Assembly (NCBI RefSeq): GCF_003073045.1
Contig: NC_037602.1
Coordinates: 4,072,872 to 4,136,871 of the forward strand
Direction of reading: 5' to 3'
Origin: Pomacea canaliculata
Taxonomy: Eukaryota > Mollusca > Gastropoda > Architaenioglossa > Ampullariidae
Length of the DNA: 64,000 nt
This document shows positions 12,994 through 64,000 of this stretch, piece by piece. Positions within the stretch are counted from its first letter, which is position 1; every line of letters starts with the position of its first letter. The notes under the pieces are model-generated. The model saw nothing but the letters and a program-made list of their open reading frames with translations. It ran no database searches and was not told the origin of the DNA. Position numbers and translations under genes: made by a program.

Positions 12994-13085
12994 ATGAATA
13001 CTCTTCAGCTTGAAGATGAGAAGCAGCATGACGCCGATGGAGGTTCGCTCCAATACACAGTCAGTCCACGTATGCTACTTGTCAG
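12994..13085 (+). CDS. Candidate first coding exon of array copy 1
   Basis: ATG at 12,994 (context AAGATGA) opens 30 codons ([17 protein letters not shown]...) and ends at a CAG/GTAGGA donor at 13,085/13,086. The exon leaves two bases (AG), and the next exon at 13,828 needs exactly one base to complete its first codon (AG+A, Arg), so the phases match. I could not find a sequence counterpart upstream of copies 2-4. Those copies have an in-frame ATG in a good context (CAAATGG) within their first shared exon. The exon is therefore plausible, not proven. Confidence 0.4.
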
Positions 13086-16000
13086 GTAGGACATAGGCCC
13101 GCTGCAGACATGTATACTGGGAGGGGGTGGAGTTCGTTGACATGAAAGGTCACCATCTGACCGGGTAGACTCGTAGGTCACTCGAGGAGCAGCCCAATGG
13201 TGTGAGCTCTGTGATAATAAATACATTTTTTTTTTAGAAACAATGACTCAATGGGTAAAATCAATAAAGAATCGTGCTTATATTTTTTATTGGTTTTCTA
13301 TTAATGGCAACAACCACTGCGTTTTCATTGCCTCGTGTCACGAGGGAACGGATGAACGGAAGTAAACGCCAACACTATACGTGCTGCGCAACCATCAGGG
13401 GTGGTAGTTATGAACCGAGAAGTCTTTGTCCTAGGACTACACAGGGAACTTAATGACAAGTGTCTTGTTTCCAATGTTAGCTTTTGGAAACTTGAGTTAA
13501 CAATGAAGGCGACGTACACGTGAGGGTGGATGATGACGGGTGGGAAACAGAGGTGGAGATCAACGGAGCCAAAGGTAGGAGGAAGATTGTGGTACCTGGG
13601 CTCGGATATTTATAGAAAGCCGTGGAATCATGGAGAACAACTTTTCAGCACTATCCAGTGTCACAACTTGTCAAATTGCGGTCTATGATTTTGTTCTTTA
13701 AATGAAATAAATTATTTCATAAAGATGAAATTGACAGAGAAAAAGTTAAAGTCGAATGCTAGAAAGCCAGCCAGTGGTAACATTTCTCTGTCCACACTGC
13801 CTTCCTTCACTTTTTCTATTTGTACAGACGCCCCGAGTTCCCCAAATTTGACCAGCTGATCTCCAGAGCAAATTTCATGCACTGTAATAATGAGGGTACC
13901 TGCTACCACTTCCGGGACGAGGTGGAAGCGTGGATGAGGAGACACGGTGACTACATGACGCTGCCTGACGTCCTGGCTGCGCTAACAGCCGCTCAAGACA
14001 AAATCTGCCACCCGGATTTCCCCTCAGACAACACATCAGGGTATCGCATGGGTCACATCACCTTGAGGCTCGTAAAGCAAGCAGTCAGGTAACTGTCTCT
14101 TCCTAATGTTAATAAAAATGAATCTTTATAAAACATGGCAGCCATGGAATGAATGCAATCTTGAGAAAACTTTTCTAAATGCAGTCTAGTTGTTTTTCTT
14201 TTTTTTTTTTTTTTCGTTCTTTCTTGTCCAGAAATCATTAAGTCTTCTTTTTCTGTTTTGCGTCCTTAAATCAGAGCTCTAATATACTGGGGCATAGCCA
14301 GGCAAGAATACTTTCACCTGCCTTACCTGGACTTTGCGCTTCAGATGATTGACGTGGGACCAACGTCCAGTCACGTGGAGTTCATCTCCAGCCTCAACGA
14401 CTCGGACGTTGAGTTCTACGAGTATCTTAAGGTGAGAACCTTTCAAAGACCTCCACCACTATTTTTACTCGGTATTAAACACCATTTTAGATGCGTATAA
14501 AGTTTCACTCACATTGATCTTTTGAAGTGCCATGGTAGCAATGCTCCGTGATATCGGCCTTCTGGTTCTTCTCAATTCTTATTATTTGCTAAGTGAGTGA
14601 TGATGACTTGCAAGAAAGGAAGAAAATAGAAACAAACAAACAAATAAAAAAAAAGGAGAAAGCTAAAAGGTTTATTAAATATTTTACTGTTTTATTCAGA
14701 GCCTGCGTGGAGAGGACCTGAGCAGAGTGATTAGGGCCTTGATGAAGCAGTATAAGCCCGACCAAGGTATGGTGTGGGACAGGTACCAGACTCACCTGGA
14801 ACGCTTCATGAGGATATTCATCATCAATGCATTCAGGCAAGACATCAAGATGGCAGTCAAAAATATCTACATTGATATCTTTATTTTATGAAAACTGCAT
14901 CCAGAAAAATAGGAGTTCGGTGTAAATAAGGCATTTTTTTGTATAAGCTGGATAACTTTAAATTAGCTCGAGAGGATGGGACCACTCAAGAAAAGATACT
15001 ATTGGGCATTAATGGAAAAAAAAATGATTTGTGAGAAATCTTTGTCCCATGATCCTACTCTGCTGTGGTTGTAGCGAAGAGCAGCGTGAAGAGAGTCGAA
15101 ACGACTTCATCGACGTGCACATGTACTTCACCACCGCCTTCAACACCCGAGAGAAAAACATCAGAAAACAGATGAGAGAGTTCGCCCGATGGATAGAGTT
15201 AAAGTACGATTGGAATCTCTTCAAGGTGGGATGAATCCTCTCTATATGAAAAAACTCTTAGTAAGTCTGTTCCTACGTCTGCCTCTCTTCTTCTTCTCTC
15301 CATGCCTTATTTTTCCCACCCTGTTCGCTCACTAGCTTTGTGTGTGTGGAAGAAACTTAAGAAATGAAAGGTCTCTCTATCGGCATATCAAACTTTGCCT
15401 TTCACCTTTAACAGGGAATCAAAAATGTGGAACGTCTACGGCGCCACCTTGCGAGTATTAAAAAGGTAATACTCGCCCCTGAGTACCCGCAAGAAAAATA
15501 TGTCGAAGAGACTTCAAAGAGAATGGTACACTGCCTCCTACAGACCGTAAGGTATCTTTGTTGATATGTATTTGATTATGTGATATGATAAAGGCTGACA
15601 GATGAATGTTTTTAATAGAAATAAGAAAACAATCAGACGATTGTCCAGCAAAGAATATCGTATAAATATACAAAACTTGCCTTCTCAGTTTTGTTCCTTT
15701 ACTAACTAAAAGGGTATGTACAATTTCTTTTTAAAATGATGTCTGTGTATAAGAATATAAAAGCTAGAAAGTTTAGTTTCTATTTTTTCTTTTTTTTCTT
15801 CAGTGACGAATCGCTGCTCTGTGAAATGTATAGCGAGATAATGGACTTCGCACTTCAGCTCTCTTTAAAGAAAAGAGGTTCCCAAGCAGCCAAAGATGTC
15901 TTTGAGATGATTGGAAATTTCTTTCTTCGTCTCAAGGAAGACAGCTTTAAGGTTAGTCAAATAGCTATGATGTACCTACTTCAGCCATTGTGCGTCTATG

Positions 16001-19000
16001 TGACTTTAGTGAGTAAATGAGAACAGCTAAAGACTAGGGGGTACAGAGGGTGAGAGATAGTGGGAAGAAGAGAAGTAGAAATTGAAACTTGGAATTGGTG
16101 AGAGATGCGAGACGAAGAGGAAAGAAGGATAAGATGTCGAGAGATAGAGAGACAGCAAATGATTAGCTACTTCAAGTCAACAAGTAGTTACATAGAAATA
16201 GTAGATGATATTTATTTATTTATTTATTTATATATTTATTTATTTATTCGTGTGTGCCTGAAAAGAAAAGTTGTTACCATTGTCCACAAGCACTCCATAA
16301 CACAACGAGCACTTACTATATACTGTACTTTTCCCGATGTTCAACAGGACAACGAAGTTGCACGAGGGGCTTGTAGTCGAAGCTCACACATCTGCTGGAC
16401 AACATCGGCGATGAGACCTTCCTGGCCATCTCCTTCGCCAGGCCTGTCGTTGATCACGTGCTTTGCGCCGCCATGGTCACGTGAGTTGAACATTCTCCTC
16501 TCAAGAGTTCACGTACCTGAGTTTGATGAAGGAATGGAGGGATGTGATAGCTGTGTGCTTCAGGTAGAGTCTTATTAATTTTATCATTTTTGTTTATCAA
16601 AATTAGACAACATTTGTGGGTTAAAAGAAATAAACACCACGATTACATGCATATGTTGTAAATTACGAGTTAATTTCCAAGTTTATTCATCCTTTTTTTT
16701 TTTTTTTTTTTCTTACGCTCCTTGGTCTTTCTTGTTCCATTCCACTGGTCTCAGTTTTTGCAATAAGTATGTTTTGAATGTGGAAGCTGCTTGTGAGACC
16801 AAGAAACCTATTTTACAAAGTTTCACAAAACTTTGCATGTGGACAGTTCACATTCACGTGCATTTAATTCCAGGTCACGTGACCACGCTGTCTGTGGATA
16901 AACATGATCAAGGCATTGCTCAAGCATCCGACTGAGAACTGCATGAGCGCAGCCTGTGATGCCATAAATAAAGACAAGATCCTGAAGTGGAAGGTAAGCT
17001 CTCACATTCTTGAGCTACTGACCCTGTAGGTTCGCATCGTTCATTGATAAAGTACTCATCTTCCAATTTTCAATTTTCCAAAAGCTTGGTTACCAATATT
17101 TTACAATACACATACCTTTCTAAATAATCTGCACTTTGCTAAATCTCTCACTTTTAAATTTCCCCTCATCCGTCAAAGATGTGAAGAGTGAATATTTATT
17201 ATTCCTAGGTAGAAACGGAATGATGTAAACGATGGAAGAATAAAAAAATATTAATTGCAAGATAAATAAGAACACCCTCGCGAGTATGTACAGATCCAGA
17301 TTGACAACTTGTCATTGAATGTTTTAACAAAGGACTACCCAGAACAGGTGAAGGAAATCTTTGCCATACTGAGCACACTGACCATTCCAGACTGGGTGCA
17401 GAGTGAGGACATGGAAACAAGTGTTCTGCTACTTGAAGGACTTTGCAGATTGTTTACTAGACGGAGTCGAGTAAGCATTCACTTATTTTCCTCTTTTCTG
17501 ATGAAAACCGCCTTTTCATTTGTTGGTTAATCAAAGCATTACTATCCTCTTTCCTTTTCAATTGTTTTCGGTGTATATTTCTTATCATTGTTAGCCCTTC
17601 CTTGCACATTTTCGCCAGCAAAATTATGGCAAGCTTTCTATGTCTCCCTTAGAAAGGCCAAACTTCAAAAGAACATCAAAGAAGATATGGTCTTCTTTGT
17701 CTTCCACTGCATCGAACTGCGTGACGAGCAGTTGCTTACATTAGCTTCTGATGTGATGTCAAAAATGAACTTCAACGGCAAGGTATGCACCCGACAGTTG
17801 GTAGAGAGTTGAGTGGCGAAGATGCACGCGGCATAATTCGTTATTTTATTTTGTATTTTGAAATCACCATTTCAGTGAATTCTTGTGAATAGATTTCCCT
17901 TGGCTTTTTTTAATTGCAGACCAACAAGCCCCTGGTTATGAAGATAATTCGTTTCCTTAACAAAATTTTATCAGATGATACTTACGGGTGGCTTAAAGAA
18001 GATATAGCACATGAACTACCCTGTTTAGTACAAACCCTGGCACAGTGCGTTGACAAGGTCAGGTAAGTAGTCTGACAGTTCCATCTACACTTTTATCAGG
18101 AACATCAATAAAGGCAGACAACTCATTTGAGATCGTGAAATTTTTGTAGTCAACAGATCGGAAATGGCGTATATACAAAGAAAAAGTCGACGTTTTGTTG
18201 CTTGTGTTCCAATCTGTTTCATGTGGTTGTTACCCGTTCAGCCACTAAACCAGCTTTTATGAGATTGTTCGATTCTCTGCATGGATTTATTTTTATAAAG
18301 TAGTACATCAGTGGTTTTGCTATGGGTAAAGTTTGAAGGTCTATTTCGCCAGAGATTGGAAAGTATTTTCCTGGGAGGAGTTGGAGGACATGGTCAGCCT
18401 GTGTCTGCGATGCCAGCAGGGAGGCTTCGTGCGTGACGACGACAACCTGACAGCCTACTACTACGTCTACATCACCATCTCTGCTCACCTGTACCAGTGG
18501 GTAAGTCACCTCTCGTCTTGCATGTGATGACAACAATATTAACTATAGATACTCGGTTTATTTTTTTCTCTCTCTCACACACACACTTTCTCTCTCTCTA
18601 TGAGCGCAATAACACCGGATGGAAACACCCTATGAACATTTTTGCTTTCAGGTGGACTCGGTGAATGAAATGAACCTTGTCAATGAGCTTCTGCCCGGGG
18701 TGATTGACATGCTGGAGTCAGACAATGACATTGTGAGAGTTACAGGAGCATGGCATGTGCAGACGGTCACTCGCTCGGGTACAGTTGATGGCCAATACAT
18801 GGACCGACTAATCCAGATTTTCCTCGAGACGGAGTCAGACAGCGTCCTTTGTAAGTCAATCAGTTAGTCTGGTACACATCATCATGTTGCATATATTAGC
18901 TAAATCTGGTCTGACAGAGAAAGATAAAGAAGAAAAGTTCTCACTGATCAAAGACAATTTGAGTTTAATAAGAAAAAAAAAGAAAACGCTTAAAAAGTGA

Positions 19001-22000
19001 GAAATATTCATCATGGAATAGTTTAGACACCAAGACAGGAATCACGGGTTAATAAATGATCAACATTTAGAGTTGTGGTGATGGGGGTAAAGTAATTAAC
19101 TTGTGAGAGGACGAAATGGATCGAGATGATGGAAATCCTACAGTTCACACCGAACTGTTTTCTTTCCTTCTAGTCATCTGGTTAATTCTACGCTTGCAAC
19201 ACTCATCTTTGTTGCATTTGTTATTATTATTGTTGTTTCACAGGCTATCTTTCAATAGCTGAATTAAAATATGCAAGCCCGTTGCCTTACACAGTAGAAA
19301 AAATGATAGTGAAAAAACTCAACAGATCGTGATTCTGGTTGTCTGATTCAGCTGCCATCAGCAACATCTACGAAGAAAATACTGAGGCCCTGACGCCCTA
19401 CTTCCAGAATCTGTTTGACCATCTGGACAGCAGTAACACGATGGTCAAGTCGCAGGTGGGGAGGCTGTTACAGAAGGTGGCTGAGTGTCAGCCAGATGTA
19501 AGTAGTCCACTAATTATACTCACTGCTAAATTGTTTACATCCCTCTGAACAGTCCAATGATTGTTGGAAAACATTTGTTTGAGATGGCGCTTGTTTCCTC
19601 GCAGATATTCACACACAGACACGTGGATGCTCTCATGAAACATGCCCTGAAAGACTTGTCCAGCAGACGATCATTCTGACAGCCGTGGAGGAGATAACCA
19701 GCAAGACCGGAGAAGATAACACCTTTCATCGAACAGTTGACGACGCCAAGTCTTTGGAGTGCGAACTGTGCAGACACCATCACCAATATCCTGCACCACT
19801 ACGCCGTCAGACAGAAGTGAGGCTTGTGAATGGAAACTAAGTACTGAAATTTATTATCTTTGTAACACGATGATCAATGGTTGGAGACTTGCTAAGTAAA
19901 TGGGTACATTAGTTATCAGAGAAGTTGAGGGATGAGCTATTCGCTTTGCACTTGCCATGAGACGAAAGAAGAGAACAAAAGAGAGAGACAGAAGGAAGAA
20001 ATACGGAGAAGACATGTGTCAGTCTGTGACCGTATACGTTTTGATTTTTTTTTTTTTATTCTTTACCTGTACAGGTTGACGGTGCTGCCAAGATCGTAGA
20101 CTACATGATAGAAGTTATTCAAACATCATCAGACAAAGGTGCTGTCGGAACAGCTTTGAGGTCTGTACGACTGATCGGCGCAAAACATCGATCTCTCTTA
20201 AAGAAATATCGTCGCCCGATCGAGAAGTTTCGAAGTACCACAAAAGACAGAGACCAGCGCAGTGATTGTACATTGATCATCAACATGTTGGACGAGGAAA
20301 GGTCAGTATCCATATATTTTCATTCTTTTTCTTTTTCCGTTCATTTTCTTATGAGGTTTCACAGACCAAAAGTTACTTATTATCGACAAAAGTTCCAGAA
20401 GGTGGCTGTAAGTTTCTTAGAAGGTTCCACTACATCTTTCCGATTGCCAAAAGTTCGGGAGAAGCTTCATGGCTTTTGTACTTAATTGCCACTCCATATG
20501 TAGCTCAGTCGTAAATGTTCAAATAATTGTCTATTTTTCTGAATCTTCTTCTTCTTCTTTCCTATACGCCCCCAGTGGAGCATAGGGCCGCAACCACACG
20601 CCGCCATCGGACCCGGTCCTGGGCGTCCCTTTCCAGTTGGCACCATTTTTCTGAATAGGTTTATATATTTCAATTGTTTTCAAATGTTTGATTTATTTTC
20701 AATGATTTTTCTCTGGGGTTTTGTGCTGCCAACCAACAGTATCAAGAACTTCACGGATGAATCGAGGATGCCTCAGCAAGACAAGGAGAATCTGGAAAAT
20801 GGCAAAATTATCGTAGGGACTGAGGTCAACGAGGTTCAGAACACCACCCGAAACCAAGGAAAAGACCTTGACAAAAAGACTATAGCCAACGTACAAGAGC
20901 TCGACGAAAAAGTGAGTTCAATAAACTTCTATAGCCTGGAAATCAACTTTGGCTACCTTATATGCAACTTGTTGACCAAAACTTAAGCAGTGACTAGACT
21001 TTCATACATGTTGATATAGATTAATATAAATAGAACAAGTTGGGGCAAAAATATATTGATGCTCGTTATCAATGCTATAAAAAAAAAGATCGACGCTTAC
21101 AGGTCAACCAATCTTGATAAAAAAAAACAAAAAAACTTCTATTTCTTCATGCTCACAAGTTATATAGAAAGAATGTTTACATAGACATCTGGCTACTTGC
21201 CATCTTGGGCACGTGACATCTCCAAGCTGCTGAAACCTGAGCAAGAAGCTGACTGGCAAACGCTTAGTCGACGTCTGGGCTACAACAACGACGACATGCG
21301 GAAGTGGGCGCAGCAGCCGGACCCGTTGTACAGCGATGCTCAACGAGTGGTACACCACACACGATACAAGGGACGCAACCCTCGCCGTGCTTACCGCCCT
21401 TCAAGACATGGGCCGCGAGGATGCCGCTGTCATGGTGGAGATTGCCATGAAGAATACAGGTGGAGTAGGCACTTCGGTGCAAGACGAAACATTCGAGTAC
21501 TCCACCCCTCGTGATATCTTCATAAGCTACCCGCCGGGTAGCCAGAACGAGGCGCAGTCGCTAAAGGAACATCTGGAAATGGCTGGTTACACCTGCTGGT
21601 TGGATTTAGAGCATCTGGAAGTAGAAGACGAACTCTTTCAGAAGATCCAGTCCAGAATCGAGGAAGTGAAGGTGGTCATCTGCTGCATCAACGAAGATTA
21701 TTTTAAATCTCATGTATGCGAAAAGGAGGTGAGTGACCTCGAGTTTTCTTTCTCATGTAAAACGTTAATTAAGTTTTGATTATTTAGTGTTCACTAAGCG
21801 TTTGATTTTGTATTCTTATGTGGCATACCTATTCCACAAGAACATTTAAGTAATGTTTTGAGAAAATTCTGAATTCTCGATCCTGAAACTGGCCATGCGA
21901 CTTTTTACTCTCGCACGCACGCACACACGCACGCACGCACAGAGAGAAAGAAAGAAAGATTCTCAGATGTTGGTCGTCCAACCTTAGGTGACGATTTCGG

Positions 22001-24095
22001 CCCAGCTTGAAAAGCCCATCATTCCTTTGCTGTCGGAGGAAACATCGTGGCCGCCTTCAGGCAATATGGGAGCCATCTTCAACGACAACTTTTACATTAA
22101 CTTTTTTCAAAGTCCAGACAAGACGACAGAGTCTTCTGGGTACTGGTCGTCGTCCATTTTCCAGGAGCTTCTGTGGGAGCTCATGTGCTTGAAGGATTTG
22201 GTGCGAAACACAGCCTTTGTTCGGCCAGGTGAGGATCCAGATGTCGGAATAGGTCACTACAATGTTGCAAATAATTCGCCGGACTTATCTGATTCGTAAA
22301 TTTCCATTTTGATTTCATTAACTGTCCATCATCTGCCTCTTCATTTGAGTCGAGCTTATTCTGTTCAGTAATGGAACACGCACGGTCTGTTTGGTGAAGT
22401 AGTTTCACTGCTCCTGCTATGTTTTACGCATATTTGTAGCTACAGCTGGGCAATATTTTGAGTAAAAGGGAAAAATAAGATTGTGATGGTCCCACGCCAC
22501 TCTGTTTGTCTGTATGGCTGTCTGGCTGTCTGGCTAGCTGTCTCGTTGGTTTATATAGCTGAATATTTTAGTTTGCAGCTATAGATAGGCAACTGTTCTA
22601 CTGCTGCAAGAGAATTATAAAATGTTGATCTTTACATTTATTTTTCATTGACTCAGCAAGATAATTCGCTTAGACTCATAGTTTTGATACTCTAGCAAAT
22701 ATTGCTATTGCAGAATATAGGTACTGGTGGGACCCAGAGTTGGAAGCGACCAGGGTGGACACACAGGATGGTAAACCCAATGATAAACTTGAGAAGCCCT
22801 GTTCCTGTTACTGATCCCGATTCTACTAAGGTATTAAATGGCTTTTTACCCTGTTACCCTTCTCACGCATTGAAAGCAAAATCACATCTGTTCATACGAG
22901 AAATTAGAGGCAAATACAAGATCGTGGCAAACTCTGATAATAAATTTGTTATTAGAAGTATCATGTAACCTACACTTATTGTCGGCCTTCCCTTGCGCAT
23001 GCAAACAGAAATGTCAACATAAACAATTAGTTTATAAACTTCTCTTCACAGGTGACAGTCTCGCCCGACGTGTTCATCTCCTACCAGTGGGGGAAACAAC
23101 CACAGGTGAAGAAGCTGTACGAGGCTCTGACGTCACGAGGGTTCACGTGCTGGCTGGACATCAAGCAGATGGGTGGAGGAGACTCGTTGTACGACAAGAT
23201 AGACGAAGGCATCCGCGGGTGCCGCGTGGTCGTCTCATGCGTGACCCGAAATATGCTTTGTCGCCAAACTGTCGCCGAGAGGTGAGCTTAGTTAAGCAAA
23301 ACGAAAAATTAACGGCCATGATGGGTGGATGGAGAGAGGGGAGCTTAAAAATGTTAGATTTTTTTATAGAGGAGCCATCAGTATCGTTAGCGTTATTTAC
23401 TGATGTTACCGGTATACAATAAATTACATAATAGTTATGATAATTTGTAAGGATACGGTATACATTGCCCTGAAACATGCAGAATAAAACAAAGAATAGA
23501 AAGAGAGGATAATGATAATACTCACATGCATACATCACGTGACTAAAAATAACATAATACAAAGTGCAGAATACTAAAGAAAATCGAGAGAAAGACGCCT
23601 AAGACAACTCTAAAATTACGTGTGCAGGTGAGCTTGGCCGACCATTTGAAGAAGTCTCTCCTGCCACTACTAGAAAAGACAGATTGGCCACCCCCTGGTC
23701 CAGTGGGTGTGATCCTGACAGAGAAAATATACATCAAAATCATGGATCCAGCACTCCAGGAAAATTGGAGCGGGGAGAAGTTCGAGGAGCTGGTGGGCAA
23801 GATCAGTGAGCATGTTTCGGGCCCAGGACCCGCACCCATCGCTGTGTTAAGCACAGCATCACCGACCGCGTATGACCCCAGCCGTGTTCGAGGAGAACTC
23901 TGTTTCCAGGGCAACGCCTCGCAGCCAGCAGACGACTCTATCGGAAACCCACCAGCCCCGCCATCAACTGACAACGAGGCGCAAGACGCACCGCAGGACC
24001 AGGACTGCGAAGACGTCCAGAACGATGAATGTGAAAGTCAGCAAGTAGACTTACCCTTGCCAAATGTGGGCAGTGCCTGTTGTGTGGTCCTGTAA
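12994..24095 (+). CDS. Array copy 1: solenoid-coiled coil-Death-TIR-TIR protein with CAAX box
   Basis: Exons after the candidate first exon: 13828-14088, 14275-14431, 14700-14836 (GC donor), 15075-15225, 15415-15551, 15804-15951, 16348-16480, 16874-16993, 17333-17470, 17653-17782, 17920-18062, 18353-18500, 18652-18850, 19352-19497, 19605-19816, 20075-20301, 20740-20911, 21185-21728 (Death and TIR1 fused), 21988-22228, 22714-22830, 23052-23281, 23628-24095 (TAA). It is the most diverged copy. Probable role: an intracellular innate-immune or stress sensor whose TIRs signal or cleave NAD (inference from domains). Single-base indels relative to the other copies interrupt exons at 16348, 16874, 17333, 19605, 21185 (near 21,330), 22714 and 23052. 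So either it is a pseudogene or the consensus sequence is imperfect. The TIR1 BB-loop region and the coiled coil also differ from the other copies. Confidence 0.8.
13828..20301 (+). other. Copy 1: N-terminal module and solenoid-like repeat exons
   Basis: Sixteen exons of mostly 120-230 bases encode an almost wholly helical product. The first reads [18 protein letters not shown] and continues with [18 protein letters not shown]. Exons 5 to 16 look like successive helical hairpins, for example REDMVFF-type and [10 protein letters not shown]-type blocks of about 45-75 residues. HEAT/ARM-like folding is an inference from length, helix propensity and exon periodicity; I see no textbook repeat signature. 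Introns alternate between phases 0 and 2, with exceptions. Confidence 0.55.
20546..20643 (-). mobile_element. 3' end of an RTE-like LINE inside a copy 1 intron
   Basis: On the minus strand this intronic segment reads [19 protein letters not shown], then CSTGGV and a stop, followed at its 3' side by a short (GAA)n tail. That is the characteristic C-terminus and tail of an RTE-type LINE. It is a short 5'-truncated insertion of about 100 bases in the intron before the coiled-coil exon. Copies 2 and 3 lack it at that place, so it inserted after the copies diverged or was lost from them. Confidence 0.65.
20740..20911 (+). other. Copy 1: shortened coiled-coil exon
   Basis: This encodes about 57 charged residues ([17 protein letters not shown] at the end), the same position as the 77-residue coiled-coil exons of copies 2 and 3 but 60 bases shorter. 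The regular E/V/D heptads seen in copies 2 and 3 are weaker here. It ends GAAAAA/GTGAGT in the same phase as the others. Confidence 0.6.
21185..21728 (+). other. Copy 1: Death domain fused to TIR1 first half in one exon
   Basis: The Death domain runs from about 21,200 to 21,462: [23 protein letters not shown], and after a one-base shift [20 protein letters not shown] and [10 protein letters not shown]. The frame continues without an intron through [15 protein letters not shown] into TIR1 ([51 protein letters not shown]). In copies 2 and 3 an intron of about 230 bases separates the two parts. The glutamate of CEKE/V ends the exon. The FISYQW and MGGGD motifs of the other copies are replaced by FISYPP and LEVED. 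Confidence 0.75.
21911..21960. repeat. (GCAC)n / (GA)n microsatellite
   Basis: Imperfect CGCACGCA and AGAAAG repeats in the intron that splits TIR1 of copy 1. Confidence 0.85.
21988..22830 (+). other. Copy 1: TIR1 second half and inter-TIR linker
   Basis: Exon 21988-22228 reads [15 protein letters not shown], then [23 protein letters not shown] and [14 protein letters not shown]: the back half of a TIR domain with the WPPPG-type motif of this family. Exon 22714-22830 is the short linker ([15 protein letters not shown]) ending DPDSTK. One base is out of step in the linker relative to copies 2 and 3. Confidence 0.7.
23052..24095 (+). other. Copy 1: TIR2 and C-terminal tail ending CCVVL
   Basis: Exon 23052-23281 encodes [37 protein letters not shown] and [12 protein letters not shown]. 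Near its end a one-base-shorter C run shifts the frame relative to copies 2 and 3. Exon 23628-24095 encodes [27 protein letters not shown], the end of the TIR, a Pro/Gln/Asp-rich tail with [15 protein letters not shown], and the terminus SACCVVL. CVVL is a CAAX box whose final Leu predicts geranylgeranylation; the cysteine before it could be palmitoylated. Confidence 0.75.
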
Positions 24096-30339: not shown

Positions 30340-30385
<46 letters not shown>

Positions 30386-30630
30386 TCTTGGTTTTTTTTC
30401 ATTGTTGCAGTGACGGCAGCTCAATCGGTGAAATTTATAACGAGATAATGGACTTCGCGCTTGATCTCTCTGTCAAGAAAAGCGGTTCAAAACCTGCCAA
30501 AGATATCTTTGAGACGATTGGATATTTCTTTTTTCATCTAAATGAAGACAGTCTTAAGGTTTGTCATGTACCTATTGCTGCCCTAGTACATCTGTCACTC
30601 GTGTAGGTTAACTGAGAGAGTAACTCTTGA

Positions 30631-30700
<70 letters not shown>

Positions 30701-32342: not shown

Positions 32343-32408
<66 letters not shown>

Positions 32409-52900: not shown

Positions 52901-54374
52901 ATTTTAAATATACATTGCTTTACAAAGTAACATTTTCAAAAAAGCAAACGGAAATCGATCCAAAGGGGTTCAGCTCCTTGACTGTGAGTTCTTTGCGTCT
53001 CAGATGCCATCAGCAACGTCTACGAGCAAAACCCCGGAGCCTGACGCCCTACTTCCAAGAGCTGTTTGAGCATATGGACAGCGGTAACTCTTCGGTCAAG
53101 TCCTACATGAAGATGCTTCTACAGAAGGTGGCCAAGTATCAACCGGATGTAAGTAGCTATAGAATTTTTTGGGAGAGAGGACCTGGGTCAGTATTAGAGG
53201 CTAAATGTTGATAATAGCTCATAGTGAATTGTCTAAATCATTTCTAGTATTTTTCGTCCACCGCTCCATGATTAATTTCCTTTGCTTATGCTGCTTGAAC
53301 TTTTGGAAATTTTTTTCTGATCCTACTTTCTGACAAATATAAATCAATTTTAAACTTACAGGAGGCTTTGATTTAAGACAATTGCCTAAAGGCTGCTCAG
53401 ATATGCATATTGTTTAAAGGCTTAGACAAATAACAAAACACCTTCATGTAGTACACAAAGCCTCCGGATCACGGCAGCTTACGAAGAACACAGCAAAACT
53501 CCGTCAGTAAGTGAACACCTTGGCTTTAGTATTATATAGGGTACAATTATTTATGAAAATAATTACAGCAGCTTAGATCATTCTGCTATGTACAATATAT
53601 AATTGTCATAAATCTTTATTCGACGTGGCACGTGTGTTCACAGCTGTTCACTCGTAAAAATATGGAGGTCCTAATGAAAGAGGCCTGGAAGATACTCTCC
53701 AGCAGCCACTCATTCTTATGATCGTCGAGGAGATAGCCAAGCGCAGGCCAAACAAGCTGTCGCCCTTCATCAAGCAACTAACGACTGCAGCGCTCTGGAA
53801 CCCCAACTGTTCATACACCATCAGCAACATGCTACAATACTATGCGGTGAAACAGGAGGTGAGAACAGAGTAGATGAACCGTGTTCTGAAACTGTAGGTC
53901 AGGTATAGGACTGACTGAGGAAATCGACAAACAGGGAATGTTATAGAGAGGGCAAAAAAGATAGGAGAGAAAGTAAGGACCTCAGCATAGTGCACTCATC
54001 AGAATATATACATAACTGGGTTTGAGGTTTGAAAAAGGTTACGTGCAGAGGGTCAGAGAAGGAGATAGAGCAGACAGGTGTTATATAAATTTGGAATTTT
54101 GATCGACAAGTTTAATACTGCGTATTGTTCCCCTTGTACCTCACAAGGGCGAAGAGGCTTCCAAGGTCATGGACTACATGATAAAAGTGGTTCAAACCTC
54201 ATCAGACAAAGTTGCAGTCGGGACAGCTCTGAACGCCATACGACTGATCGGCTTCAAACACCGACCTCTCTTGGAGAAGTACCGCGGTGTGATCGAGAAG
54301 TTTCGAAACACCACGAAAGACAACGACCACCACAGCGGCTGCACCGCGATCATCGACATGCTGGACGGGAAAAG
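43956..54374 (+). other. Copy 3: N-terminal module and solenoid-like repeat exons
   Basis: Sixteen exons. The first encodes [20 protein letters not shown] and [11 protein letters not shown]. Later ones include [78 protein letters not shown] and [20 protein letters not shown]. Repeated amphipathic helices with conserved L/I spacing suggest an alpha-solenoid, which in SARM1 holds the TIR inactive; that parallel is inference. Confidence 0.6.
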
Positions 54375-57300
54375 GTCAGTGTCCGCAATACTTTTTTTCA
54401 AGTTCTTTTTCTGACTTTAAAAAAGGGAAACTTTTGACACAGAAGTTGTGACTTATTATCAGCATGAGTAAAATTAATATTTGCTGGCTTTCGTAAATCT
54501 GTTTGTGGATCCCCTACCCCACCCCACTCTTCAACAAAACGTTACTAGTTCATCTCTAGGGTTCATGAACAGTTGAAACTACTTTGAGTATTATCAATCT
54601 ACATAAATGAACACTTAATTCAGGAAAAAATAAGGTAGAAAAAATAGAAACTAAGCTAGCAAAGAGAGAGTAAGAGAGAGAGATATGAAACTTGGTGAAC
54701 AGTATTTTTTTAATACTTTAATCGTTTCAAATGTCTACATTTAACAAAACTGTCTTTTTTTTCCGGATTCTTAATACACACAAACAGTCTCGACAAAGTT
54801 GCGGCAGAAATGAAGGCGCTTCAGGAGGACGTGGCAGACCTGGAAATTCGTGTCATCGCCGTTGAGACCGACGTCGTCGAAGTCAGAGACACCGTGCGTC
54901 ACCAAGGAGAAGATCTTGGCAGAGTTAAGGATGAGGTGGCGGAGCATGGTCAGCGCCTAGACCAGGTGGAGGAGACGGTGGAAGTGACTGTGGCCAAAGT
55001 GGAAGAGATTGATGGAAAAGTAAGTCCAGCAGAAGGACGTGCAAACAGTTAGTATGTAGCTGTAGATAGAAAAGTAAAGGTTGATTCAGGAGCCAACCTC
55101 AGAACTACAACAAACAGCTATAAACTTTAATATTGTCTTTTATGTATTTAAAAATACATCTTTTGTAGGTAAGTTCTTTTATCAAGAAAAATATATTTGG
55201 AATACGTTGATCGCACGAGACTTTGATGACTAAAATACTTTTAGTTTTTTATAGACATTGAGTCATGCACCATTCTGGTCACGTGACGTCTCCAAGCTAT
55301 TGAACCCTGACACCGAACATGACTGGCGCCTGCTCAGCCGTCGTCTGGGCTACAACAACGACGACATGAGGGGGTGGGCGCAGCAGGCGGACCCCTGTAT
55401 GGCGATGCTCAACGAGTGGTACACCACGCACAAGACAAGGGACGCAACCTTCGCCGTGCTTACCGCCCTTCAAGATATGAGTCGGGAGGATGCTGCTGCT
55501 ATTGTGGAGAATGCTATGAAGAATGCAGGTGGAGTAATCAATTTTTATCTTGATAATTATTTTCATGAATTTTGACATAGCATTTCCCTGTCTAAAAAAA
55601 TGTTCACAACCAATTCTGAATGATGTGAGCAGTTATGTCGAAAAGACAAGAAGCAAATATAGCTCTGGAATAGTTTTGCTAATCACACATCATGTTTTTC
55701 CTACGAGATACATAAAATATAATCCATAACACAAATCAACATCTCATTGCTTTAGAGGCTGTGGTGGTGGACGAGGAGTTCGAGTACGCCACTCCGCCTG
55801 ACGTCTTCATCAGCTACCAGTGGGGTCACCAGAACGAGGTGCGGTTGCTAAGGCAACACCTAGAAATGGCTGGCTACAGCTGCTGGATGGATGTAGGGCA
55901 GATGGGAGGCGGAGACAAACTCTTTGAAAAGATAGACTCTGGAATTAGGGGAGCGAAGGTGGTTATCTGCTGCGTCAACGAAAAATATTCAAAGTCTCCT
56001 AATTGCAATAGAGAGGTGGGTCAGGTTTTGTTGTTTATGTTAAACTATTTTTACATATTAAACGCTACTTCGTGTCATCATCAATGTTTATTGAGAGTAT
56101 AAGACACATGTGACAGAATTTTCTCACTAAAAATTTAGGCAATGCTATTCGGAACGATTAAATATAAAATGAACCGGGCTAAATTTACACAGAGAGCAAC
56201 ACGCACAAACACACTGACACAAGTGCTGCTCATCTCAGGTGAACCTAACAGTCAGCCTCGGCAAGCCCATCATCCCTCTCTTGATGGAGCAAACAACATG
56301 GCCACCCCCAGGCTCCATGGGCCCCATCTTCAGCGAGTATCTCTTCATTCGTTTCTTTCAAAGATCAGGCGAGGAGACAAAGGACTCCAGATACTGGCCG
56401 CTGTCCAAATTTCAAGAACTTCTCATGCAACTCTCTCTGAATGCAGTGATGCCAGACGAAGCTGCTGTTCAGCCAGGTGAGGATTCATATTTCAATCTGT
56501 GTAAGTAAATTGTATCCCGAAAATACTGTTCATTGTATCTAGTATTGAGCTGACTCTTTAAACGTATGCACGTTAAATAGGCTATATATAAAAAAATACA
56601 TGCAATCTCAAGAAAAACCTATTTGGGAATAAAATGTTTAGTACGTGTACTTTGATCGCAGAATATAAAAACTGGTGGCTCCCGAAGACAGAAGAGATAA
56701 AGGTGGACAAAAACAGAAAGAAGGCAAAAGTTCAAGCCAAGTCCATTGTTACTGATCCTGGTTCTACTAAGGTACATCATACCTTCTTACCGTGCTACCT
56801 TGTTCAAGAATTAAAATTTTAATTACGTATGTCGTCGGCATCGTAAAAAATTATCTGCTTATTAAATTATTAAAAGAACGGGATTCATCCAGAATATGTT
56901 TTAATTGGTAAATTATAAAGATATGAAACTTTGTAGTTATTGATAATGTAAAATACACCTGCATAGCATCCTAACTTTTCAAGTTCAAAGAATCAGTCCC
57001 TCCTTCCCCAACAATTACTAAACCACTTTTTGTTGCTCGTTCAAACAGAAAGTTCGATGGAAGAAAAATATCTTGTGTCTTTCCCTGAACAGGTGACAGT
57101 CTCACCAGAGGTGTTCATCTCCTACCAATGGGGGAGACAACCTCAAGTGGTGGGTCTGTACAAGGCTCTGACGTCACAGGGCTTCACGTGCTGGCTGGAC
57201 ATCATGCAGATGGGCGGAGGAGACTCGCTGTATGACAAGATTGACAAGGGGGTGCGCGGGTGTCGTGTGGTCGTCTCGTGCGTCACCCCGAAATATGCTT

Positions 57301-58264
57301 TGTCTGCAAACTGTCGCCGAGAGGTGAGCTTTGGCAACTTGAACGATGACTGTAAAGATAAGATGGAGGCTAAGACTGGTAGTGTATTACAGCTATCAGC
57401 ATCGGTTACATTATCTACTGATTGTGTAACAAGGATTGTGTCAGACTTGTTGAATCATTTTATACGCAATTGAGCTACAGCTATGAAGACATTGGTATTA
57501 AGCTTAAGAAAATTTGTCTTACCTCGTTCTACCTTGTTTTAAACAAGCACATAGGTTAAAGACGTTGGAGAGTAATACATGAAAAATAGCCTACAAAGAA
57601 GCTAAATGTACCTGAGCAGGTGAGTCTGGCCGATGCTTTGAAGAAGCCGCTGGTGCCACTGTTGCTGGAGACATCATCCTGGCCACCCCCTGGCCCAATG
57701 GGTCCGGTCCTCACGCAGCTTCTTTATATCGACTGTACCGACCCCACCCTGCAGGAAAAGTGGACTGGACCAAAGTTCCAGGAGCTGGTAGCCAAGATCA
57801 GGGAAAATGTTCCCACACATGACTCCAGCGCCAGCTCACTTACTCAAGGACAACTCCACACCAAGAGTGACGCCTCGCAGCCAGCAGACGACTCGGTGGG
57901 AAAGCCATCAACACACCATAAAACTTCGCATCAACAGGTCCAAGAAGCTGCGCCTGTTGCTGTTGTCAACTCACCTGACTCCTCCTCAGGGGCACTCGCC
58001 CATGGACAACTCAGATCCCAAGGCGGCGCCCTGCAGGCAGCAGACGACTCGGGGGTAAGGCCAGCGACCCTGCCCTCAGCACACCCTGAGGTTCACGACC
58101 CTCCGCACCAGCAGCTCCAGGGTAACGGGACAATCCAGAACGAGGCGTGTGACCCTCGACCAGTGGATAGATCTCTGCAGGACAGGCCACCACCTCCACC
58201 TCCACCTCCACGCGCTAAGGAAGCGCCACAAGTGGCCAGCAGTTCTTGTTGTCTAATCCAGTGA
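43956..58264 (+). CDS. Array copy 3: solenoid-coiled coil-Death-TIR-TIR protein with CAAX box (best preserved)
   Basis: Exons: 43956-44215, 45140-45296, 45703-45839, 47394-47544, 47784-47920, 48686-48833, 49262-49395, 49814-49937, 50534-50670, 50934-51063, 51470-51612, 51893-52040, 52337-52534, 53004-53148, 53644-53858, 54148-54374, 54788-55019, 55255-55528, 55756-56015, 56239-56476, 56662-56771, 57093-57323, 57620-58264 (TGA). Total about 4,580 bases, roughly 1,527 codons. Domains in order: helical N-terminus, solenoid-like repeats, coiled coil, Death, TIR1, linker, TIR2, Pro/Gln-rich tail, CCLIQ. One-base losses relative to the other copies lie in the exons at 43956, 52337, 53004 and 53644, three of them in C or G runs. 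All other exons are open and in phase. Likely an intracellular TIR signalling protein tethered to membrane; function is inferred from domains only. Confidence 0.85.
45940..47160. mobile_element. About 1.2-kb insertion in a copy 3 intron, type unknown
   Basis: The intron between the exons at 45703 and 47394 is about 1.55 kb, against about 0.32 kb in copy 2. The part after about 47,200 aligns with the end of the copy 2 intron (GGAAGGTATAATCATTA and on). The extra block in between has no counterpart in the other copies. It has no clear coding frames, terminal repeats or family motif that I recognise, so mobile origin is an inference from its presence in one copy only. Confidence 0.35.
54788..55019 (+). 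other. Copy 3: coiled-coil exon
   Basis: Encodes [19 protein letters not shown], then [20 protein letters not shown] and further acidic heptads to VEEIDGK, 77 residues. Near-identical to copy 2. Probably drives oligomerisation beside the Death domain. Confidence 0.75.
55255..55528 (+). other. Copy 3: Death-domain exon
   Basis: Complete death fold in one exon: [77 protein letters not shown]. Intact; phase-1 donor GCAG/GTGGAG. Confidence 0.87.
55756..56476 (+). other. Copy 3: TIR1 domain (two exons)
   Basis: Exon 55756-56015 gives [58 protein letters not shown] and NRE. Exon 56239-56476 gives [38 protein letters not shown] and [10 protein letters not shown]. The catalytic-position Glu is the last codon before the intron. 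Confidence 0.87.
56662..56771 (+). other. Copy 3: inter-TIR linker exon
   Basis: Thirty-seven residues ([18 protein letters not shown], lysine-rich middle, [10 protein letters not shown]). Open, phase 1 in and phase 0 out. Confidence 0.75.
57093..58264 (+). other. Copy 3: TIR2 and extended C-terminal tail ending CCLIQ
   Basis: Exon 57093-57323: [61 protein letters not shown]. Exon 57620-58264: [37 protein letters not shown], then a tail about 55 residues longer than in copy 2. It carries two degenerate copies of GQL....A.Q.ADDS...P and an eight-proline run, ending SSSCCLIQ. CLIQ fits a CAAX box. A valid acceptor at 57,048 was rejected because it meets a stop in the required frame. Confidence 0.85.
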
Positions 58265-59536: not shown

Positions 59537-60166
59537 TGTCATGGATCTAGTCAGAGTGCTAGGACTGGGCGCGTGTGTAGATGAAAGCGTGCGAATGATG
59601 GACGTTCTCTAAATAGAACGTGACTAATGACGTCTAGTGACGTCAAAAAAAAATAGTGAGGTAAGAGGGAGAGACGTTAGAGGGGATATGGAAGCAGAAG
59701 GACGTTAGAGGGCATTTAGAAGAAGAAGGACGCTGGAGAATAGAGAGAAGAAGAGGACGTTAGAGAGTAGATAGAAGAGGAAGAACGTTAGCGAGTGGAA
59801 GAAGAAGAAAGTTAGAGAGCGGAAAGGGAGAGGTGAACGCATTTGCCAAGACAATGCGATTTGCTAATCAGAGATCGAATATACTAATGTGAAAGGAGAA
59901 ACGACTGCCAAGACAGTGAGTTTATAGCGTGTGAGGTGTTCGTTGTACTTTGTAGAAGTGGAGATTGAAGGAAAAACTGTGGTGTTAGAGACCGTTTTGC
60001 TTTTATAGTTAGGATCTATTTTGTTGGTTGGTAATTTTGATCAGTAAACAGACACGACTCGTACAGGCGAATCATTCTTTAATTGGAACGAAAGCACGCG
60101 CAATTGTCCGACCCGCTGGTGAGTTGGAGAGAGCGAAAAACGAGGGGCACCGGCGGCGTCGTGACA
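59537..60166. mobile_element. Probable solo LTR (fossil), about 630 bases
   Basis: The flank after copy 3 aligns with the flank after copy 2 up to about 59,536 and again from about 60,170. The 630 bases between are absent from the other flank. The insert begins TGTC and ends GACA, the inverted termini usual for LTRs. It contains paired TGACGT sites near 59,630-59,643 and a GA-rich section of imperfect GACGTTAGAG repeats at 59,670-59,820. No coding region is present. I do not see an exact target-site duplication, so family and age are uncertain; it is younger than the split of the two flanks. Confidence 0.45.
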
Positions 60167-61952
60167 ATTGTCAAAAGATGTTTACGTTTTCATTGCATTA
60201 TTCATACAATATTTTTTACATTTTGTGTCTCCTCTTGAATGAGTAGTTTACCTGTCACGATGATATGATCATGTTTTGTGTTCAGATGTGGCTGCGACTC
60301 ACCTTTTATTTTTATTCATTTATCAGTTTTGTTTTTGGTTGTTGTTTGTTTTTGTTTTGGGTTTTTTTTTTGTTTTGTTTTTTGCTTCTTGTTTTTTTTA
60401 TTGTTCTGAAATAAAACATGCACAGTTCACGAACATACAATCAGTTCTCTTGAGATTTGACAAAGACTGTGACAGAGAGTTTCATCACGTGACCAGATAC
60501 AATGGTGACGGAATCGCTGTGCTACAGTGGAGAGGTACTTCTCTAAGTGTACACGTGTTTTAAGTTTATCGCCTGCATATCAACCCTCCCCCTCCTTGCC
60601 CCGCACTCGCACCCGGAATGGTCCGGCTCCACACTCACTGAGCATGCGCACAACGTGGCGGGGGAGGGAGGAACAAGTAGATCATGTTTACGCGTCGCCT
60701 TGGAGATGTGCAACAACGCGTCACCGATCGAGATAAGGACAAGTCCTCGTGCCGGCAGTGTTAGCTTGTCATGTGGTGGCTGGAAAACGTGCGAGTGGTA
60801 AACAGCTTTAATGGGGGGTTTTAGGGGGTAGAAAGAAGATACAGTGATCGTACACAGACTGGCTTAACATGATGGTCAAACCATTTTTTTTTTCTAACTT
60901 TCGTGTAGTAGATATAGAAAAGTCAACAGACCGACATGCATGCTGTGAGAATAGGTAACCTCGATCACACCTAGCCGTGCAAGGTTTCTGCCTTCTCTAG
61001 AGGTCTCTTACATATCCACTGGGTGATATTGATAGCCAGGATCGTCTGTCTGCGTGGTACTACAGTTTTAAGGTAAGAAGAGAGAGAAAGAAAGAGAGAT
61101 ATTTTGTGTGCGTGTGTGTGTGTGTGCAGTAGAGTTCAAGCTAAACATTATGTCACTGGCCCACACCTGTGGTGTCTTAGTTAACATGACAAAGCTGTTT
61201 CTCTTCACTGCAGTCAGGTGACAGCCTGGAGCAGGTCAAAGGTACTAGTCAAGTGGGCGTGGCGAGAGAAGCAGACCGTTTTATTTCCAAACAGACATGG
61301 CCTTTTTATCCATCTGAAAGAAAAATCAAATGATGTAAAAATAAAATATAGTTGCTTCGTGAATAATATACAGCGCCAGTCCATTTATTATTTACTCTGT
61401 AAATTTTAGAGGCATTGTTTCTCTAATTGTTTATACAAGCAAGGTAATTTTTTTTTAATGAGCGTTACGCAAATAAAGAAAATCAAACAAATGATGAATA
61501 AGCTGCGAATCGGACCAGGGAAGTGAATAGATAAACGAATATGTGTATGTGTGAACGGAAGGATAGACTGCCAAAAAAGACGTGCTGCTCAAATATATTT
61601 ACGCAAAGATCCTTATAAAACTTGTGACTATAATTTTTATAATTCTACACAAAAATAACATTTTAAAAACGTACATCTCGTACGTTTATGTAAATAGCAT
61701 TTTACATAAATAACATTTTAAAACATGTCTTATCTCTCGCTCTCTTCTCGCTTCCCTTACACACTTCCAAATTGTTACGTTGTATATTAGTTTCGTATAG
61801 CTTTTATTTGTTTAACCACATGGCTCTCACTTCTACTCACAGAAAGGAAGAAAAGAATAAAAAATAACATAATCACAGAGAGGAAGAAAGAAAGAAAAGT
61901 AGCAGAGTTCTCTGTCCGCAACATCTTCCTTTATTGACTTTACTTTGTAGAG
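60167..61952 (+). promoter_or_regulatory. Duplicated 5' flank of copy 4
   Basis: Homologous to the 5' flank of copy 3 (AACATACAATCAGTTCTC near 60,432; the box CTTGGAGATGTGCAACAACG at 60,699-60,718) and partly to copy 2 (GGAGCAGGTCAAAG and AAGTGGGCGTGGCGAGAGAA near 61,229-61,270). No reading frame is conserved. A (GT)n run lies near 61,108-61,126. Confidence 0.5.
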
Positions 61953-64000
61953 ACGGCTCCAACCTCCTGTAAATGGACCAGCTGATATCCAGGGCGAATT
62001 TCATCCACACTGACAACAACGATGTCCACCACAAGTTCCAGGACGAGCTCGAGGCGTGGATGAGAGAAAATTGCAAGAAGATGACGTTGTCTGACGCTTT
62101 GGCAGCGCTGAAAGCACTCGAGAGAAAATCTGCCACCCGGATTTCCCGACAGAGAACACATCGGGATATTACATGGGGAACTCCACCCTGAGGTTCCTGA
62201 AAGAAGCAATCGGGTAGCTGTCTTGATGCATTTTGCAATGATGATGATGATGACGACGACGAAGACGACGACGCAGACAACTCACATTGCCATTTTTAGT
62301 AACCAAATTACGCCCCTGTATGCCTTCAGTCTGGGACTAGCCACTTTCGTCGTTCATCTTCGTAAATGATGATCTTTAATGGAAACCATGGCATAAACAG
62401 GACGCTTGAAAAACTAAGATCTCAATACCTCCATATCTTCTCTCTTTCTCTCTCTCTCTCGCTCGATATCTCTCTTGTATTGTCTTCCTTTTCATTTCAT
62501 TTCTTGAGAAACCATTCAGTAATATTTTCTATTTTACATGGCTTCTGAAAGCAGAGGTCTGATAGAGTCTGGCAAAGCCAAGCCCGAGGACTTCCACGTT
62601 CCTTTCCTAGAATTTGTGCTGCAGATGATTGACGTAGGACCCACGTCCAGCCACGTGGAGTACATCTCCAACCTCAACGACTCGAGTGTCGAGTTCTACA
62701 AGTATCTTAGCGTGAGTGCATTCCCGACATCCACCAGTAACCCTTGGGATAGGGGTGTGGGGACTGGTGGGTAAAGGTCACTTCCTGTACTGTATAGTGT
62801 GTGCGCATGTTCACCACCTGAAATTGTCTTCAAAAAAACGAGTGGTAGTTAAGGTGTGTATCCTACAGCTTGCATGGCGAGTAGAAGGACGACGTCCATA
62901 GGATGCCATGAAAAATCTCCTGCACTTTAATTTGATACTTATAAAGTTTCCTGTTTGTTTGGTCAGTTCCTCGAAAAAATCAGAGTGATACTCGGCTCAA
63001 AAATTATTACAATGTTCCTCCTACAGAGCCTGCGTGGTGAGGGCCTGAGAAGAGTGATCAGAGCATTGATGAAGCAGTACAAACAGGATCCTGGCTCAGT
63101 TTGGGGCAGGTACGAACATAATCTCGAGCGCTTCATACGGATATTCACCGACAGAGTCTTCTGGCAAGTAATATGATCATAAAGATTTACCATTGTAGAT
63201 AAGTACTGAATATAGAAAATAGGGAACCCTGATTAAGAGCTTACTGAAACCTGAACACTCATTATCGTGCTGTTTGCCTGCTCAGTTCATGTCTGTGACC
63301 TGATGTTGTCTTGTCTTGTCAGTTCAAGTCTGTGTGACCTGGTATGTTGTTTTTCTCATGTCTTAGTGACCTGGAAGCCGTCTGAAATTGCTTCTAGTAC
63401 ATTTGTCCTTGATTTACTTACAGAATGTAGTCCACCAAATATAATTCGTAAATTTGTGATGTCTTCACCTCGTGTCATCGCTCCTTTTATGAACTATAAA
63501 GTTTAACTTATTGTCTTCAATCTGAAACTACAAAACAACACATGGTTGAATGTACAGCTCTGAGCATATGTTGATCCCCTTCTCGTTCTCTTTTTGTACA
63601 AAGCATTTACTTCGTTGTCGTTAATATTCTGTATTGTTTGCTTTACTCTTACTCTGTTGAACCCTGTCCGGTTACTGTCCTCTAATGTGGTTGTAGCGAT
63701 GAGCAGCGCGAGGAGGGTCATCGCGACTTCATCGACTTGTACATGTACTTCATCACCGCCTTCAACACCAGAGAGGAGAACATCAGGAAGAAGATGCAAA
63801 GCTGCGCTCATTGCATCGAACATAAGTACGACAGAAATAACAACATCTTTAAGGTGGGGTAAATGAAAATGGTTTCTTTATGCCCTAGTCTTCATTTCCC
63901 TCTCTATCTCTCTGTCCGAATAATAATGATCATCATCATTATCATCATTATCATCATCGTCGTCGTCGTCGTCGTCTTCATCATCATCATCATCATCATC
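61953..64000 (+). CDS. Array copy 4: 5' part of a fourth paralogue, cut by the window edge
   Basis: Exons visible: 61953-62213, 62555-62711, 63027-63163 (GC donor), 63697-63853. They encode the N-terminal module only: [88 protein letters not shown]. Exon lengths and phases match copies 1-3, and the fourth exon has two extra codons. The first exon carries the same one-base loss as copy 3 plus one extra base near its start. The remaining exons are expected beyond the right edge. Confidence 0.8.
62236..62276. repeat. (GAT)n / (GAC)n microsatellite
   Basis: GATGAT and GACGAC triplets in the first shared intron of copy 4. Confidence 0.85.
63921..64000. repeat. (ATC)n / (GTC)n microsatellite at the window edge
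   Basis: TCATCA and CGTCGT triplets run to the end of the window in the fourth intron of copy 4. Confidence 0.9.

Follow-up and report, generated by a model that had tools for sequence, protein, structure and literature searches.

SARM1, an NADase, has the domain order ARM-SAM-SAM-TIR, MyD88 has the order Death-TIR, and NLRs possess a NACHT or NB-ARC ATPase. An invertebrate group of TIR proteins, ecTIR-DC family 6, was reportedly defined by Gerdol et al. in 2017. Its members, which occur in invertebrates including molluscs, combine a long N-terminal ARM-like region, a central Death domain, and two TIR domains and are predicted to be cytosolic (PMC6836662 and PMC5549309). One of these texts places the family 6 TIR domains "N-terminal," apparently a slip (PMC6836662). 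Architectures of the family 6 type are expressed in the gills of clams and mussels (PMC6836662 and PMC5549309), and family 6 belongs to the TIR proteins that are expressed at especially high levels in mussel gill (PMC5549309). In the gastropod Aplysia, three MyD88-like proteins with an additional armadillo-type fold are described, one locus number being listed twice (PMC9334734). Here, we analyzed a 64,000-nucleotide stretch of the genome of Pomacea canaliculata, referred to as the window (G000:C13:4072872-4136871, GC content of ~41%), which contains four tandem paralogs, c1 to c4; a dispersed fifth gene, s5, was included from searches of the whole genome (440,159,624 bases, 24 contigs). The best explanation of the locus, to which we give a probability of about 60% on sequence evidence, is that these are tandem genes of family 6 architecture that would encode a prenylated, oligomerizing innate-immune adaptor or sensor.

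Self-comparison of stop-to-stop open reading frames (ORFs) in the window revealed one ordered series of blocks on the + strand, present in three complete copies and one copy cut by the window end. Splice modeling resolved the series into 23 exons, E1 to E23, whose phases chain through the gene: (1,2) for E1, then (1,0) and (0,2) in alternation up to E12, followed by (0,1)(2,0)(0,0)(0,2)(1,0)(0,1)(2,0)(0,1)(2,0)(0,0) and a final exon. For 14 of the 23 blocks, a joint automatic search yielded splice pairs common to c1 to c3, and the remaining nine were positioned manually; acceptor placement is uncertain for E14 of c2 and for E15 of c1, c3, and c4. By conserved blocks and this splice model, E1 to E23 occupy 13828..24095 in c1 (with E18 and E19 fused), 27760..41023 in c2, and 43956..58264 in c3, all on the + strand. 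The fourth copy starts at 61951 on the same strand and has E1 to E4 within the window (61951..64000), and its E5 to E23 follow in the next 10.8 kb downstream (G000:C13 4137031-4147650). The four head-to-tail paralogs with about 23 exons in common order and phase, which the original prediction had proposed from the letters of the DNA, are borne out by both approaches.

The Death domain is encoded by E18 (55255..55528 in c3, + strand; 37981-38254 in c2; and 21185-21457 in c1, where it continues into TIR1). It matched Pfam Death (PF00531) with E values of 3.7e-13 in c3 and 6e-12 in c1, and its best match in the PDB was the p75NTR death domain (2e-6), MyD88 being found at 0.99. In c1, a single open frame of 181 residues covers the second half of the Death domain together with the first half of TIR1 and is preceded by a frameshift inside the Death domain. 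Two TIR domains follow, also on the + strand. TIR1 is located at 55756..56476 in c3 (E19, 55756-56015; E20, 56239-56476), 38490-39231 in c2, and 21464-22228 in c1, and TIR2 at 57093..57817 in c3 (E22, 57093-57323; start of E23, 57620-57817), ~40020-40744 in c2, and ~23052-23822 in c1. Between them lies a linker exon, E21 (56661..56772 in c3, + strand), which is present in c1 to c4 and s5. Pfam TIR_2 (PF13676) recognized two stretches each in c1 (1.8e-39) and c3 (1.8e-46), in agreement with the Death and two TIR domains first read from the sequence. Because an intron lies at the equivalent site in both TIR domains, directly after the Glu of a C-x-x-E motif, the gene structure points to an internal TIR duplication.

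Searched against the PDB, TIR1 and TIR2 matched the SARM1 TIR domain at 8e-8 and 2.5e-4, respectively. A profile made from five of the 10 TIR domains (TIR1 of c3, s5, and c1 and TIR2 of c3 and s5) ranked SARM1 highest (8e-9), followed by bacterial TIR domains at ~1e-6, including the NAD hydrolase AbTIR, Toll-receptor-related 2 at 0.0025, and MyD88 at 0.2. The equivalent of the SARM1 catalytic glutamate, which we take to be E642, is the last Glu of E19 in TIR1 and of E22 in TIR2 and is present in all 10 TIR domains. The SARM1 pocket tryptophan four residues before it, presumably W638, falls opposite a four-residue gap and is not kept, and the SYRR stretch of SARM1 is replaced by SYQW in nine of the 10 domains and by SYPP in TIR1 of c1. 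A Glu of the E642 type is found in >70% of all TIR domains, and its presence need not track activity; it occurs in >90% of members of TIR groups with reported NADase activity and in <10% of those of MyD88 (PMC7075850).

All five paralogs end in Cys-Cys-aliphatic-aliphatic-X (CCaaX): CCVVL in c1 (24078..24092), CCLLQ in c2 (41006..41020), and CCLIQ in c3 (58247..58261, with the stop codon next), each on the + strand, CCLIQ in c4, whose protein closes with SSCCLIQ, and CCVIS in s5. The CaaX-type signals proper are CVVL, CLLQ, CLIQ, CLIQ, and CVIS, each preceded by a Cys. Ahead of these signals, the tails are of unequal length, and in c1 and s5 their sequence is different too. A final Leu favors geranylgeranylation by prenyltransferases, and a final Gln or Ser favors farnesylation. 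The invariant signal, which gives substance to an earlier suggestion of a lipid anchor, suggests that the proteins may be prenylated and located at membranes.

Ahead of the Death domain, E17 encodes 77 residues, or 11 heptads, of a predicted coiled coil (54788..55019 in c3, + strand; 37078-37309 in c2; 20740-20911 in c1). Three of the five paralogs, c1, c3, and s5, were submitted to a heptad test. Hydrophobic residues occupied 19 of 22 a/d positions in c3 versus five of 55 elsewhere, and 18 of 22 versus seven of 55 in s5, and none of 2000 shuffles equaled either pattern; in c1, the pattern is lost, 366 of 2000 shuffles being as good. The coiled coil of the original prediction is supported to this extent in c3 and s5.

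Exons E2 to E16 encode an N-terminal region of ~770 residues (45140..54374 in c3, + strand; 14275-20301 in c1; 28253-36821 in c2), with ~41-76 residues per exon and alternating phases in E2 to E12. By analogy with the described family, this region may form an ARM/HEAT-type solenoid, a fold unproved by sequence here, and four results bear on it. Pfam, with which c1 and c3 were scanned, returned HEAT_EZ in c1 alone, with an E value of 0.0054 that falls short of the Pfam cut-off. A profile search of the PDB gave no match for the region, and exon-exon comparison with hhalign gave no significant internal repeat, the best probability among 120 pairs being 10.8. Finally, the helix propensity of 1.050 is so close to the strand propensity of 1.021 that the difference decides nothing. 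Of the long helical solenoid proposed for these genes, the long N-terminal region exists, and the alpha-solenoid fold is unproved by the Pfam, PDB, repeat, and propensity tests.

Comparing these genes with the described systems, it becomes clear that their architecture is not without precedent. The original prediction held that no family with this full layout had been described; ARM-like region, Death domain, and two TIR domains are already the layout of ecTIR-DC family 6 (PMC6836662 and PMC5549309), a published architecture of the kind that the prediction itself had named as refuting its claim. The Death domain and both TIR domains of family 6 are found in the snail genes, and the only ARM-like motif is the HEAT_EZ match of 0.0054 in c1. 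A coiled coil and a CCaaX end are not mentioned for the family in the accessible text of PMC6836662. Judged by their predicted domains, c1 to c4 and s5 are gastropod genes of family 6 architecture, and the fact that this membership is one of architecture alone is a further point against the overall interpretation. The Aplysia MyD88-like proteins, compared here by description, likewise come from a gastropod and combine an armadillo-type fold with a Death-like domain and a TIR domain (PMC9334734).

The claim that the domain order is distinct from those of SARM1, MyD88, and NLRs was upheld by Pfam on c1 and c3. SARM1 shares with the snail proteins an N-terminal region followed by TIR, is their closest solved TIR relative, and has the E642 glutamate in common with them. 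However, the snail proteins have a Death domain and a coiled coil in the place of the SAM domains, two TIR domains, and a CaaX end, and neither W638 nor SYRR is kept; in scans of c1 and c3, Pfam gave no SAM domain at E values up to 1, and membership of SARM1 was rejected. MyD88 shares the succession of Death and TIR, whereas the snail proteins have tandem TIR_2 domains, a long N-terminal region, and a CaaX tail, with weak sequence similarity. Membership of MyD88 was rejected on the two TIR_2 domains and on the MyD88 TIR domain appearing only at 0.2 with the profile. Similarly, NLR membership was rejected, as neither NACHT nor NB-ARC was matched by Pfam in c1 or c3 at E values up to 1.

Searching the genome with the Death exon of c3 gave at least six matches in at least five loci, namely c1 (split by the frameshift), c2, c3, c4, and s5. 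The dispersed gene s5 lies on the - strand at C13:1405126-1416358, 2.7 Mb from the array. Its E5 to E10 and E13 to E23 and parts of E11 and E12 are free of stops; these exons were placed by matches alone. For E1 to E4 of s5, there was no match even at E values up to 10, and E11 and E12 were matched in part only. In a genome scan with TIR_2, 10 of the 95 matches are both TIR domains of c1 to c4 and s5, and in a scan with Death, four of the 19 matches are c2, c3, c4, and s5, the frameshifted c1 exon being unmatched. No further full copy was found at E 0.01 within 80 kb downstream and 30 kb upstream. A lone E11-like fragment with 50% identity and stops inside lies at window coordinate 85344-85481 (G000:C13) and is perhaps the relic of another copy.

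The ratio of nonsynonymous to silent divergence (dN/dS) within the array is below 1, with values of 0.25 for c2-c3 (653 codons), 0.33 for c1-c3 (455 codons), and 0.40 for c1-c2 (313 codons). Silent divergence differs sharply along the genes. Between c3 and c4, it is 0.086 in the Death-TIR exons and 0.420 in the N-terminal exons (E2 to E12; Fisher test, 8e-22); the corresponding values are 0.091 and 0.455 between c2 and c4 (2e-19) and 0.096 and 0.197 between c2 and c3 (0.003). The N-terminal sums cover 11 (c3-c4), eight (c2-c4), and seven (c2-c3) of the 14 exons E2 to E15, omitting frameshifted, unplaced, and unmatched ones, and the Death-TIR sums cover E18, E19, E20, E22, and E23 for c3-c4 and the same exons without E22 for the other pairs. 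E16 and E17 were tallied separately, and E21 was counted in neither sum. In c4, E17 is not homogenized (silent divergence of 0.52-0.57), and E16 is partly so (0.19-0.22). The Death-TIR exons are not generally frozen at silent sites because they are far from c1, with 0.46-0.50 in the TIR exons, and from s5, with 0.68-0.73 between its Death-TIR exons and those of c2 to c4. The first copy is also set apart in protein, the nonsynonymous divergence (pN) of its TIR exons from those of c2 to c4 being ~0.25 and that of its N-terminal exons from those of c3 being 0.166. We read the similarity of the Death-TIR exons of c2 to c4 as a probable result of gene conversion that was mostly confined to exons. 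Gene conversion likewise keeps the C-terminal part of the tandem paralogs TLR1 and TLR6, including most of the TIR domain, alike while their other domains diverge (PMC2077338). Unlike what we propose for the snail proteins, TLR1 and TLR6 are transmembrane receptors, and they form a separate family.

Several observations speak against conversion of this kind. The N-terminal exon E12 is low as well (0.029 in c2-c3, 0.117 in c1-c3, 0.277 in c3-c4, and 0.308 in c2-c4), and the silent-site split is also broken by E4, at 0.205 in c3-c4, and by E23, at 0.181 in c2-c3. The c3/c4 introns from E17/18 to E21/22 have identities of 0.44-0.54, at the level of shuffled introns (mean of 0.47, highest of 0.56 in 20 shuffles of one intron pair), with the E22/23 intron at 0.91; other introns have 0.44-0.61 and 0.72 in c2-c4 and 0.63-0.86 in c2-c3. 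Such sharp exon edges are unusual for ordinary gene conversion and are unexplained if the conversion was both ordinary and recent. The silent-site contrast could instead stem from constraint at the codon level or from a recent, partial duplication, as the mostly unlike introns beside homogenized exons and the low E12 would allow. However, at silent sites these exons have diverged widely from their counterparts in c1 and s5, and a recent duplication would leave introns alike, so we consider this alternative quite improbable. A further difficulty lies in the reading frames, which, in the assembly, are broken at several points by frameshifts in three of the four copies of the array: eight in c1 (seven one-base and one two-base), 10 in c2 (eight and two), and four one-base frameshifts in c3, making 22 in total, of which 19 are one-base and three two-base. 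One more is possible at the start of E15 in c2, and a one-base frameshift in E1 lies at apparently the same place in c3 (44116) and c4 (62114); in c4, a stop just ahead of the ATG of MDQLIS leaves the true start codon unsettled. These counts could mean that c1 to c3 are decaying pseudogenes and that c4 and s5 alone work, given that E2 to E23 of c4 and the exons found in s5 read open and that TLR-like ORFs of >700 residues are open elsewhere in the assembly, which suggests that base accuracy is generally good. We regard such decay as doubtful, since c1 to c3 have no nonsense codon in E1 to E22 as aligned (by an aligner that penalizes stops) or in E23, the dN/dS values are 0.25-0.40, and the frameshifts are mostly of one base. 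The lack of nonsense codons and dN/dS values well below 1 would fit errors in the assembly, against which speak the clean frames of c4 (E2 to E23), of the exons found in s5, and of the TLR-like ORFs. Moreover, if the assembly is that of PMC6129957, it is a long-read, base-polished assembly of a genome with 1-2% heterozygosity.

If the genes are working members of the family 6 architecture, as we prefer, their proteins would be cytosolic and held at membranes by CaaX prenylation, perhaps together with palmitoylation of the neighboring Cys. The long N-terminal region would take up an upstream signal or hold the protein inactive, oligomerization would be driven by the coiled coil and the Death domain, and the clustered tandem TIR domains would signal, either by recruiting other TIR or Death proteins or by cutting NAD. 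Exon-level gene conversion would keep the Death-TIR-TIR output of c2 to c4 uniform as the N-terminal regions diverge, a pattern that one would expect of a single output serving several inputs. Two special cases of this explanation differ in that output. In one, at somewhat less than even odds, the proteins would act purely as adaptors: like MyD88, they would connect TLR-type receptors with Death-domain kinases through their tandem TIR and Death domains, and their output would not be enzymatic. The combination of Death and TIR is that of MyD88, the SARM1 pocket is incompletely kept, and a role of family 6 in TLR signal transduction has been speculated upon from gill co-expression with TLRs (PMC6836662); however, the TIR sequences are unlike those of MyD88 or TLRs, and the Death domain is nearer to p75NTR than to MyD88. 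In the other case, which we rate as rather unlikely, the proteins would be SARM1-like NADases with an N-terminal autoinhibitory sensor of a metabolite or ligand, in which clustering of the TIR domains through Death domain and coiled coil starts NAD cleavage at the membrane. Both TIR domains match SARM1 best and bacterial TIR domains, including AbTIR, next, with MyD88 reached only by the profile, and the glutamate that is common in NADase-active groups and rare in MyD88 is present in all 10, so that NAD cleavage by the snail TIR domains is possible. Nevertheless, this residue is widespread among TIR domains irrespective of activity (PMC7075850), the SARM1 tryptophan falls in a gap, SYRR has become SYQW or SYPP, and SAM is absent from the Pfam matches. 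A bolder version, a long shot in our estimate, is that of a local expansion of SARM1-like TIR enzymes that would be prenylated and tethered to membranes. Exon-wise conversion would fix their output while the sensing regions diversify, making them NLR-like sensors without NACHT, and CVVL as opposed to CLLQ, CLIQ, and CVIS would route copies to different membranes.

The surroundings of the array and the rest of the genome gave some additional observations. For c1, a candidate first coding exon at 12994-13085 is phase-compatible by reading of the DNA and is not conserved at that place in c2 to c4. Upstream of c2 and c3, 26954-27500 and 42392-42920 align over 573 columns with 73% identity outside the modeled exons and may represent a promoter or 5' exon that the two copies have in common. 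A 78-bp resemblance at 86% identity links 27447-27524 upstream of c2 with 61220-61297 upstream of c4 and may be a short 5' exon. Elsewhere in the genome, TIR matches also cluster at G000:C3:7508278-7583519, C9:4459786-4532422, C1:36296064-36362666, and C8:29461871-29475816. The TIR array at C3:7.5 Mb was rejected as a relative; a comparison of the first 60 of its ~75 kb at E 1e-3 gave no match to any exon. At G000:C14:3226000-3233999 (local 2752-5985, - strand), a single ORF of 1077 residues contains leucine-rich repeats and two TIR stretches (Pfam LRR_8, 5.9e-31; TIR, 9.9e-17; membrane span judged by eye) and is a predicted twin-TIR TLR-like gene, and two more ORFs at C14:3219642-3238375 (1,019 and 1,271 residues stop to stop) have two TIR matches apiece. 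Twin-TIR TLRs were previously reported in bivalves only (PMC6836662).

A CaaX end, a tandem array, and exon homogenization are not mentioned for family 6 in the accessible text of PMC6836662, PMC5549309, PMC6321704, PMC9334734, and PMC4346834, the defining paper lying outside this scope. Within the literature searched, the invariant CCaaX, the exon-level homogenized output module, and the five-locus inventory are new. Overall, a little-studied invertebrate TIR family appears here as an expanded, selected array in a probably invasive snail, with two testable features added to it: a CaaX end found in every copy, and uniformity of the output module despite drift of the input region. A 2020 survey names SARM1 as the only metazoan TIR protein with known NADase activity (PMC7075850). 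If the snail TIR domains cut NAD, these genes would constitute a second animal family of multi-domain TIR enzymes beside SARM1.

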